Of a stretch of DNA of 64,000 nt, positions 53,350-56,539 are shown one piece after another. This stretch comes from Stigmatella aurantiaca (GTDB lineage: Bacteria > Myxococcota > Myxococcia > Myxococcales > Myxococcaceae). Both the position numbers and the translations under genes were made by a program. Under the pieces are notes generated by a model. The model searched no databases and was not told the origin of the DNA. It was given only the letters and a program-made list of their open reading frames with translations. Position 1 is the stretch's first letter. The number at the start of each line of letters is the position of its first letter. Location: positions 620,001 to 684,000 of the forward strand of contig NZ_FOAP01000001.1 of assembly GCF_900109545.1 (NCBI RefSeq). The letters are read 5' to 3'.

Positions 53350-53844
53350 TCAGGGGATGCCCAGCTCCTTGCGCAGCCGGTTCACCACCTTGAAGTACTC
53401 GGTGCGGGAGAAGGGCACGTTGAGGATGTAGAAGTCCTTCTTGGAGAGCCCCACGCAGCCGAAGCAGTAGTTGCAGTCCGAGAGGTTCCGGCAGAGCACC
53501 AGGTAGGCGCTGCCGGTGCAGTTCTCGCACTGCACGCAGTAGGCGCAGGCATGGCAGCTCTTCGAGTCCACGCAGTGCGAGCAGTTGTTGCACAGCTCGC
53601 ACCGCGTGCAGTGGGTGCACTGGTAGCAGTTGCTGCAGTCCTTGCAGAACATGCAGTTGGCGCAGCGCTGGCAGCCCTCGCACGCGTAGGAGCCCGGGTT
53701 GCCCGGATCCGAGGCGAACGTCTTCGTCAGCCGCTGGAACTGCTCCAGGAACTCCCGCTTGCCCACGGTGGCCAGGGCCTGCCGCGCGGCCTGCTCCTCC
53801 TCATGTGACTCCGGGGTGGGGGCCCGCGTTCCTTTGTCCTTCAC
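53350..53844 (-). CDS. Protein with 22 cysteines in strict three-residue register
   Basis: This 164-residue protein starts at GTG 53844 with GGAG upstream. It has no signal peptide. The charged, helical N-terminus (about 1-50) precedes a Cys array at positions 55 to 91 with one Cys every three residues (13 in a row). The array continues at 97, 100, 103, 106, 109, 118, 124, 127 and 130. All 22 fall in the same modulo-3 phase. A short tail reads RTEYFKVVNRLRKEL. Databases have called similar proteins 'caib/baif', a label the sequence does not support. A metal-cluster, zinc-ribbon-like or disulfide solenoid structure is possible. Confidence 0.85.
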   Translation of the reverse strand: MKDKGTRAPTPESHEEEQAARQALATVGKREFLEQFQRLTKTFASDPGNPGSYACEGCQRCANCMFCKDCSNCYQCTHCTRCELCNNCSHCVDSKSCHACAYCVQCENCTGSAYLVLCRNLSDCNYCFGCVGLSKKDFYILNVPFSRTEYFKVVNRLRKELGIP

Positions 53845-53874
53845 TTGGGGGAACTCCTTCCTTTCGTTCCTGAC

Positions 53875-54438
53875 TTAGCGCAACCGGGCCAGTCCTTCGA
53901 GGTCGATGCCCCGGGCAATCCGCCGCACCTCCACGGTGCCGGGAAAGCCACGGCTCGTCACGGCCACCACGAAGCGGTCGCCCACCAGGAGGTTGGCCTC
54001 CGCGGTCGTCTCCTCCGCGTCGTAGCGCACGAACCCCACCGCCGCATCCCAGAAAATGGGCGCGGAAGGGTCGCTCGCAGGCCGGCCCTTCGCCCCCTCG
54101 GCGGCCTCGCGGATGGCCTTGGCGATCTTCCAACCCAGCGTGGTGTCGACGATGCGGACCTTCACCTCGCGCTCCTCGCCCAAGGTGAAGGTGCGCTCGG
54201 CCTCGCTCACGGAGATCTCGCCATACTTGCCCGTGGAGCCCTCGGTCGTGGCGTGGGTGAAGCCCTCCAGCGAGTCTGGCAAGAAGGGGGCCAGTTGCCG
54301 GAAGTACACGCAGGGTGCGGCAGGGGCCTCGCCCAAAGCGGAGGCCCCCTCGGCGCCCGTGCGCTCTTCCAGACAGCCAGTGCCCAGGGCCAACCCGAGC
54401 ACCCCCAGCAGGCGCACCAAGGATTTGATTTCGGTCAC
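53875..54438 (-). CDS. Lipoprotein of unknown function
   Basis: This protein of about 187 residues starts at GTG 54438 with a lipobox LGTGC (Cys22). The mature part is a single mixed domain with a helix-strand pattern (FRQLAPFLPDSLEGF, YGEISVSEAERTFTL, VKVRIVDTTLGWKIAKAIREAAEG, ANLLVGDRFVVAVTSRG). No family is recognised; the pattern is close to other hypothetical myxobacterial lipoproteins. It is divergent from the helicase gene, whose ATG lies 34 bp away, so the two promoters must overlap. Confidence 0.75.
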   Translation of the reverse strand: MTEIKSLVRLLGVLGLALGTGCLEERTGAEGASALGEAPAAPCVYFRQLAPFLPDSLEGFTHATTEGSTGKYGEISVSEAERTFTLGEEREVKVRIVDTTLGWKIAKAIREAAEGAKGRPASDPSAPIFWDAAVGFVRYDAEETTAEANLLVGDRFVVAVTSRGFPGTVEVRRIARGIDLEGLARLR

Positions 54439-54472
54439 GGGGCGATCAAAAGGTATCCCCGCTCTCCGCGCA

Positions 54473-56539
54473 ATGGACCTCTCCAAGCTCAACCCCCCTC
54501 AGCGCGAGGCCGTCGTCACGACGGAAGGCCCCCTCCTGGTGCTCGCCGGCGCAGGCAGCGGAAAAACCCGCGTCATCACCCACCGCATCGTTCACATCCT
54601 GAACACGCGGCCGGGGGGGGTCCTGGCCCGCAACATCCTCGCCGTCACCTTCACCAACAAGGCCGCCACCGAGATGAAGGAGCGGCTGGTGAAGATGGCG
54701 GGCCCCCGCGCACAAGGCGTGCTGGTGTGTACCTTCCACGCCTTCGGCGCGGAGATGCTCCGCGAGGACATCCACCGGCTGGGCTGGCCGCGGAAGTTCG
54801 CCATCGCGGACATGGGGGACCAGCTGGCGCTCATCCGCCGGGCCATGCGCGACCATAAAATCGACGACCGGTCGTTCGATGCGCGCAAGGTCCTCAACCT
54901 CATCTCCAAGGCGAAGAACTCGGGGCACGAGCCCAGCCCCAAGCCCGAGGGCCTGGGGGACGACTACGATCTCATCACCCACCTAGTCTACCCGAGCTAC
55001 CAGCTGGGCCTGAAGGCCCAGGGCTCGGTGGACTTCGATGACCTGCTGCTCCTGCCCGCCCGCCTGCTGCGAGAGCACGAGGACCTGAACGAGAAGTACA
55101 CCCGGCGCTTCCGGTACCTGCTGGTGGACGAGTTCCAGGACACGAACCTGGCGCAGATGAACCTGCTGCGGCTGCTGGCGGGCAGCGTGCGCAACGTGTG
55201 CGCGGTGGGGGACGACGACCAGGCCATCTACAGCTGGCGCGGCGCGGAGGTGCGCAACATCCTCGAGTTCGACAGCCACTTCCCGGGCAGCCGCGAGGTG
55301 CGGCTGGAGCAGAACTACCGCTCCATGCAGGTGGTGCTGGACGCGGCCAACGCCGTCATCGCCAAGAACCCCGAGCGCAAGGCCAAGCGCATGTGGACCG
55401 ACCGCCTCGGGGGCGAGCGCATCAAGGTGGTGACGTGCCCCAACGAGGAGGAGGAGGCGCGCTTCGTCGCGCATGAAATCCAGAAGCAGATCGCCCTGGG
55501 CGTCCCCGCCGACGACATCGCGGTGCTCTACCGCACCAACGGCCAGTCCCGCCCCATCGAGGAGATGCTGCGCGAGAAGGGTGTCGCCTACGAGGTGGTG
55601 GGCGGCAGCGAGTTCTTCGACCGGCGCGAGGTGAAGGACGTCATCGCCTACTTCAAGGTGATCGCCAATCCGCGGGACGAGGTGAGCCTGCTGCGCATCG
55701 TCAACGTGCCGGCGCGCGGCATTGGCGACGTGACGATGGAGCGGCTGCACGCGCACGCCCGGGCGGACGGCGTCTCCCTGTGGGCGGCCATGGGCCGCAG
55801 CCAGGGCTACGAGGACCTGCCCGCGGGCGCGGCCGAGAAGGTGGGCGAGTTCCTCCAGCTCATCGAGAAGTACCGGGGCCTCTTCGAGGAGGGGAAGCTC
55901 GCCCAGGTGACGCGCCAGCTCCTGGAGGAGATCGGCTTCCGCGAGGCGACGCGCGCCCTGGCCACCTCCATCACCGCCGCGGACAAGAAGCTGAAGTCCG
56001 TGGACCACGTCCTCAACTCCCTGGAGTCCTTCGAGAAGCGCGAGGGGCCCAAGGCGAGCCTGCTCACCTACCTGAACCGGCTGAGCCTGGACACCCGGCA
56101 GGAAGAGGAGGAGGTGCCCGGGGGCCACCGGCGCGTCACCCTGATGACCGTGCATGCCTCCAAGGGGCTGGAGTACCGGCTCGTTTTCTTCATCGGCATG
56201 GAAGAGGACCTGATGCCCCACAAGGGCATGCAGGGCGAGCCCCAGAACCTCGAGGAGGAGCGGCGGCTCTGCTACGTCGGGATTACCCGGGCCAAGGAGC
56301 TGCTCTACCTCACCCGGGCGGCCGTGCGGGTGAAGCGGGGCAAGGACGTGCCCTGCACCCCCTCCCGGTTCCTGGAGGATCTGCCCCCCGAGGTGGTGGA
56401 GAAGGTGGACCTGGCAGCCCCCCGGACGGGTGCACCCACGGATCAGGAACGCAATTTCTTTGCCAACCTGAAGGACCGCTTCAAACCCAAAGGAGTAGGC
56501 GGGGGAGCAGGGCCTACACCGGCTGATCGCAAGCTTTGA
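54473..56539 (+). CDS. uvrD: UvrD/PcrA/Rep family ATP-dependent DNA helicase
   Basis: This protein of 688 residues is a superfamily 1A helicase. Its Q-motif region is LNPPQREAV, Walker A is AGAGSGKT (25-32), motif Ia NILAVTFTNKAATEM and Walker B LLVDEFQDTN. Motif III is AVGDDDQAIYSWRGA, motif IV EQNYRS, motif V VTLMTVHASKGLEY and motif VI YVGITRAKELLYL. It unwinds DNA 3' to 5' in repair and replication. The ATG at 54473 places motif I normally; longer in-frame starts are artefacts. The C-terminal tail is Gly-rich. rplM follows 167 bp downstream. Confidence 0.96.
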   Translation: MDLSKLNPPQREAVVTTEGPLLVLAGAGSGKTRVITHRIVHILNTRPGGVLARNILAVTFTNKAATEMKERLVKMAGPRAQGVLVCTFHAFGAEMLREDIHRLGWPRKFAIADMGDQLALIRRAMRDHKIDDRSFDARKVLNLISKAKNSGHEPSPKPEGLGDDYDLITHLVYPSYQLGLKAQGSVDFDDLLLLPARLLREHEDLNEKYTRRFRYLLVDEFQDTNLAQMNLLRLLAGSVRNVCAVGDDDQAIYSWRGAEVRNILEFDSHFPGSREVRLEQNYRSMQVVLDAANAVIAKNPERKAKRMWTDRLGGERIKVVTCPNEEEEARFVAHEIQKQIALGVPADDIAVLYRTNGQSRPIEEMLREKGVAYEVVGGSEFFDRREVKDVIAYFKVIANPRDEVSLLRIVNVPARGIGDVTMERLHAHARADGVSLWAAMGRSQGYEDLPAGAAEKVGEFLQLIEKYRGLFEEGKLAQVTRQLLEEIGFREATRALATSITAADKKLKSVDHVLNSLESFEKREGPKASLLTYLNRLSLDTRQEEEEVPGGHRRVTLMTVHASKGLEYRLVFFIGMEEDLMPHKGMQGEPQNLEEERRLCYVGITRAKELLYLTRAAVRVKRGKDVPCTPSRFLEDLPPEVVEKVDLAAPRTGAPTDQERNFFANLKDRFKPKGVGGGAGPTPADRKL

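Follow-up and report, generated by a model that had tools for sequence, protein, structure and literature searches.

The antifreeze protein of the beetle Tenebrio molitor (TmAFP; structures 1EZG and 1L1I; family PF02420) is a secreted, disulfide-bonded solenoid with two cysteines per coil and a TxT ice-binding face. Coils of beetle antifreeze proteins follow the pattern TCTxSxNCxxAx, in which residues 2, 5, 8 and 11 point inward and cysteine 2 is bonded to cysteine 8 (PMC8038014). A cysteine-lined core is also found in Csp3, a prefolded cytosolic four-helix bundle with demonstrated metal binding (PMC7558416), and small beta-solenoids occur among the pentapeptide-repeat and Knotted Solenoid proteins (PMC13123833). 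Here we describe a cysteine-rich protein encoded in a 64,000-nucleotide stretch of Stigmatella aurantiaca DNA (the window, to which all coordinates refer) and compare it with these systems.

A single-copy family with a fixed cysteine register

The open reading frame runs on the minus strand from a GTG at 53844 to a stop at 53350, giving a product of 164 residues. The features of the locus are as follows.

53350 to 53844, minus strand: whole gene, GTG start, for a 164-residue protein of cytosolic type, predicted to be a cysteine-cored solenoid
53854 to 53859, minus strand: ribosome-binding site AAGGAG, 9 nt before the GTG, read from the sequence
53713 to 53814, minus strand: predicted N-terminal helices, residues 11-25 and 29-44 (AlphaFold2 model; F32 and L39 conserved in 98-100%)
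53455 to 53682, minus strand: predicted solenoid, C55-C130, about 6.3 coils of 12 residues, 22 cysteines, every third position inward
53467 to 53649, minus strand: outward ladder F66/H78/H90/Y102/Y114/Y126 at 12-residue spacing, kept in 96-100% of 100 sequences
53647-53649, 53611-53613 and 53575-53577, minus strand: ladder codons of F66, H78 and H90
53539-53541, 53503-53505 and 53467-53469, minus strand: ladder codons of Y102, Y114 and Y126
53353 to 53475, minus strand: C-terminal cap, C124-P164 (CNYCFGCVGLSKKDFYILN...RTEYF...L), common to larger proteins of another phylum
53875 to 54492, minus strand: upstream co-directional open reading frame, a probable lipoprotein with an LGTGC lipobox, 30 nt from the gene, no family match

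A recount of the cysteines agreed with the original prediction that 22 of them, from C55 to C130, share one phase modulo 3, with 13 in an unbroken run. They stand at positions 55, 58, 61, 64, 67, 70, 73, 76, 79, 82, 85, 88 and 91 (13 consecutive steps of three) and then at 97, 100, 103, 106, 109, 118, 124, 127 and 130, all 22 being 1 modulo 3, and the phase is indeed kept across the gaps, as had been claimed for 97, 118 and 124. The probability that 22 cysteines in a 76-residue span share a single phase by chance is about 6e-15; among 200,000 random placements no more than 16 ever fell in one phase. Drift of the phase in orthologues, set beforehand as a refutation, was looked for in 100 distinct homologues and none was found: the cysteine stretch holds no indels, and 2042 cysteines lie in phase and 0 out of phase. 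The statement that the protein lacks a signal peptide also stood, the N terminus having no hydrophobic segment (best hydropathy over 15 residues, 0.05).

Only eight residues (C, S, L, V, M, A, T and I) occupy the 2600 in-phase cells of these homologues; glycine, histidine and charged or aromatic residues never occur there, a pattern that marks a core both narrow and buried. Cysteine outnumbers serine at these sites by 2042 to 328, and the number of in-phase cysteines per homologue ranges from 13 to 23. The codon-position test was weak: the predominance of conserved TGC codons left 42% of differences at the third position. The case for a coding sequence is built instead on the indel-free conservation.

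Twenty-five of 39 near relatives have a homologue, as do 31 named genome contigs, including those of Myxococcus, Corallococcus, Archangium, Pyxidicoccus and Hyalangium. Across the phylum Myxococcota there were matches in 127 of 195 genomes, always one per genome, and within Myxococcaceae in 93 of 96, the three misses being fragmented drafts; the family is thus single-copy and nearly universal in Myxococcaceae. Sampling beyond Myxococcota covered fewer than 250 genomes, and we therefore do not claim restriction to this phylum. Matches in genomes G321, G339, G010 and G160 were rejected as relatives, being low-complexity translations. One record titled Comamonas sp. KCTC 72670 (L032, BNCN01000011.1) carries a gene 80% identical to that of Stigmatella and like that of Myxococcus, and is probably mislabelled or contaminated.

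Pfam and NCBIfam gave no match to the protein up to E 1, and neither has a model of the family. PADLOC had no match to the protein, PHROG 15341 matches it and carries no function, and viral contigs searched with two family profiles contained no relatives. No description of the family was found in the papers searched. A pcrA gene, the lipoprotein and an S9 peptidase recur beside the gene in Myxococcaceae only; the neighbours differ in other families, so that they offer no operon clue.

Coil length, predicted fold and C-terminal cap

Conservation of the outward positions autocorrelates at lags of 12 (0.76) and 24 (0.74) residues, with negative values at lags 6 and 18; 20,000 shuffles that preserved the phase never reached the autocorrelation at lags 12 and 24. 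The coil is therefore 12 residues long with four inward positions, and the cysteines are spaced by three because every third residue points into the core of a tightly wound ribbon. The original prediction of a helix or solenoid with three residues per turn was thus right about a solenoid and wrong about the turn, and the sulfurs that it placed along one face line the core instead. Since the register matches the inward rule of the beetle antifreeze protein, the modulo-3 rule is the rule of a known fold.

AlphaFold2 models built from 27 and then 50 aligned sequences were beta-solenoids both times, with overall pLDDT of 73 and 79. In the second model residues 61-110 scored 91-95 and the C-terminal cap only 53-61; strand detail differs between the two. 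The best solved match was TmAFP in each case, 1L1I for the first model (Z 8.1 over 84 residues) and 1EZG for the second (Z 10.2, rmsd 2.9, 81 of 82 residues, against 6.8 for the next unrelated entry), and a family profile compared with PDB sequences also ranked 1EZG first, at an E value of only 0.79. Foldseek alone found no significant match in the PDB (E at least 0.08), and TmAFP was absent among the 50 Foldseek matches listed for the second model; we do not count this absence against the fold because the second-look aligner placed TmAFP first. These lines of evidence are not fully independent, as the cysteine periodicity drives all of them.

Two other identities were considered. The earlier view that these are not ordinary CxxC zinc knuckles agrees with the lack of any match, up to E 1, to curated CxxC zinc-binding domains in Pfam or NCBIfam, although a protein outside these libraries may still bind zinc; knuckles as a full account were rejected on the continuous register and the replacement of cysteine by serine or leucine. 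A pentapeptide-repeat protein, with a five-residue repeat and four repeats per coil, was likewise rejected: the register is 3, the period is 12, and there is no 20-residue period.

Conservation in the family is highest over the C-terminal 40 residues (CFGCVGL..KDF.ILN....R.EYF....L). Proteins of about 556 residues encoded in a genome of another phylum carry the same cap; when 45 genomes of that phylum were searched, 13 had proteins of this type, and the richest genome gave 35 matches. Profile comparison of the family with these proteins (hhalign) gave 99.2% probability over 99 columns, a score that cysteine composition may inflate. Shared cap residues other than cysteine, in the pattern C.GC..L..K.(Y/F)...N....R.EY, nevertheless argue for a true relationship. 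Upstream of the cap in these larger proteins, 122 of 154 cysteines are in phase and 32 out, and serine, leucine and isoleucine fill much of the remainder. Given the shared cap and the mostly in-phase cysteines, the all-cysteine core looks like the extreme of a general solenoid-plus-cap family.

Pfam had no match for the single cap-sharing protein scanned. In unannotated proteins of 550-600 residues (L144-L163, from genomes G350, G389, G392, G393, G397 and G400), the same cap occurs together with CxxC knuckles and stretches of solenoid; G397 and G400 show an expansion of these proteins, with 25-35 matches in each genome.

Roles of the cysteines and the outer face

The best explanation of the observed family, register, 12-residue periodicity and conserved face, to which we give a probability of roughly 0.55, is that the thiols mainly fill the solenoid core and that the outer face binds a partner. 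In this model a small intracellular protein would have residues 54-133 wound into about six flat 12-residue coils, as the fold predictions suggest. Four residues per coil, three apart, would enter a very narrow core in which cysteine is used nearly throughout and serine or leucine is tolerated, and the N-terminal helices and conserved cap would seal the solenoid ends. The cysteines would in the first place be core-packing residues, presumably reduced, and the row F66-H78-H90-Y102-Y114-Y126, flanked by small residues, would bind either a partner or another molecule of the same protein. This explanation is tempered by the retention of eleven cysteines, each in 95% or more of members, a degree of conservation beyond what simple packing of a core would demand.

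The outer row stands out for its constancy. Its residues occur once per coil at exact 12-residue spacing and are identical in nearly every sequence compared, and conservation extends to the residue preceding each of them (M, T, S/T, A, A and N/T). A stacked aromatic ladder is the proposed dimer interface of a bacterial ice-nucleation protein, and a midge antifreeze protein binds ice through a row of seven stacked tyrosines (PMC9418140). Our best guess is that the F/H/H/Y/Y/Y ladder is a putative partner-binding or self-assembly surface, over which the N-terminal helices could lie. We favor such a face because the protein has no export signal and the conserved outward columns, F/H/H/Y/Y/Y and M/T/S/A/A/N, include no TxT column. 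The same observations, together with the failure of PF02420 to match and the mixture of Phe, His and Tyr in the ladder, make it very unlikely that this is an antifreeze protein whose stacked aromatic face orders water, even though the closest solved fold is that of the beetle antifreeze protein and the midge protein offers a precedent for a stacked row.

A different function for the thiols would be that of a prefolded cytosolic metal store or buffer, a beta-solenoid analogue of Csp3 with putative Cu(I) or Zn(II) in the thiol-lined core. In Csp proteins folding comes first, and Cu(I) is then bound within a core lined by cysteines (PMC7558416); the Stigmatella family offers many inward cysteines in a protein of cytosolic type, the highly conserved eleven including the stacked pairs C61/C64 and C73/C76. 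We regard such a store as possible but doubtful: cysteine number varies, serine and leucine repeatedly replace cysteine, no ligand swap to His, Asp or Glu was seen at any in-phase cysteine site in the 100 homologues, the neighboring genes are not conserved across families, and the beetle core of the same kind contains disulfides and no metal.

Those disulfides point to a further alternative, a redox switch or thiol reservoir in which oxidation would make putative i/i+6 bonds that stiffen or reshape the solenoid. The beetle protein bonds exactly its i/i+6 core cysteines (PMC8038014), and in the Stigmatella protein the same pairs would lie opposite one another, provided that the predicted fold is correct. 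Cysteine losses on the tree are nevertheless uncoupled at i/i+6, with 4 co-changes observed and 6.0 expected (a test of modest power, because only 92 changes exist); the protein has no export signal, and cysteines at the turn position, partnerless in the beetle protein, are equally abundant. A redox role is therefore unlikely in our estimation. An Fe-S wire, or an electron relay through sulfur, running along the solenoid would draw on the unbroken cysteine column of the Stigmatella protein, but serine and leucine interrupt the columns in relatives, where positions 112 and 115 are almost never cysteine and 106 and 121 are mostly other residues, and no Fe-S family was matched; of all the readings we give this one the least credence.

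The metal ladder, Fe-S wire or disulfide stack of the original prediction has accordingly found no support so far, in view of the varying cysteine count, the serine and leucine swaps and the missing i/i+6 pairing. A broader candidate class, a cytosolic metal- or redox-buffering protein built as an antifreeze-type beta-solenoid with a continuous thiol column as its core, is a tentative assignment that we hold at well under even odds. If it were true, the column could accommodate Cu(I) or Zn(II) in large number or close up as a ladder of disulfides, in a protein widespread in Myxococcota and linked through its cap to a large unannotated family elsewhere.

Comparison with known systems

The CxxCxx-repeat phage proteins (PHROG 15341; Vibrio phage 1.238 and Campylobacter phages CP220 and IBB35), one of which is annotated as an insect antifreeze protein, share the unbroken CxxC register and differ in having no ladder and no full cap; the cap searched against phage sequences gave no match. 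The likeness rests on the repeat itself and, judged from sequence, may be convergent. In Flavobacterium phage FL-1 (L129:3062-3406) the annotated frame is an (API/APV)n repeat, and another frame of this DNA reads REDKSLNGVS...GCWNCSRC together with CxxC repeats and closely resembles the protein of Vibrio phage 1.238; the frame as deposited is therefore probably wrong. The plasmid search gave one short unannotated match (Campylobacter fetus plasmid NZ_CP007000.1:3192-3557, 31% identity to the cysteine-rich query), which may be a relative of the CxxC-repeat proteins found in Campylobacter phages.

The larger cap-sharing proteins (G350, G397 and G400) have the same C-terminal cap behind a mostly modulo-3 Cys/Ser/Leu solenoid, but are much longer, with far fewer cysteines, CxxC knuckles at their ends and many matches per genome. 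Through the cap, the Stigmatella protein is linked to an unannotated family with as many as 35 matches in a genome. The pentapeptide-repeat and Knotted Solenoid proteins are a weak structural match (MfpA, Z 4.6) and have larger coils, another repeat length and only occasional cysteines. Csp3 shares the cytosolic location and cysteine-lined core; its helical bundle contrasts with the beta-solenoid that both models give for the Stigmatella cysteine region.

The closest likeness is to TmAFP, with its flat beta-solenoid coil of 12 residues, every third residue inward, and Cys/Ser core. As modeled, this likeness is one of fold, and the protein is not a member of the antifreeze family; PF02420 had no match above cut-off in the genome or the protein. 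The fold itself is known; an intracellular, capped, nearly all-thiol bacterial version with a conserved ladder was absent from the libraries and papers searched. Such a protein would allow a direct test of whether thiols alone can pack a solenoid or require metal, and its single-copy, nearly universal occurrence and strictly conserved surface make its function approachable by deletion and mutation in Myxococcus xanthus. The Stigmatella protein departs from TmAFP in having up to four cysteines per coil, predicted helical capping, a conserved C-terminal module, no TxT and no signal peptide; it would give the beetle antifreeze fold an intracellular equivalent in bacteria, with a nearly all-cysteine core in place of the beetle disulfides.
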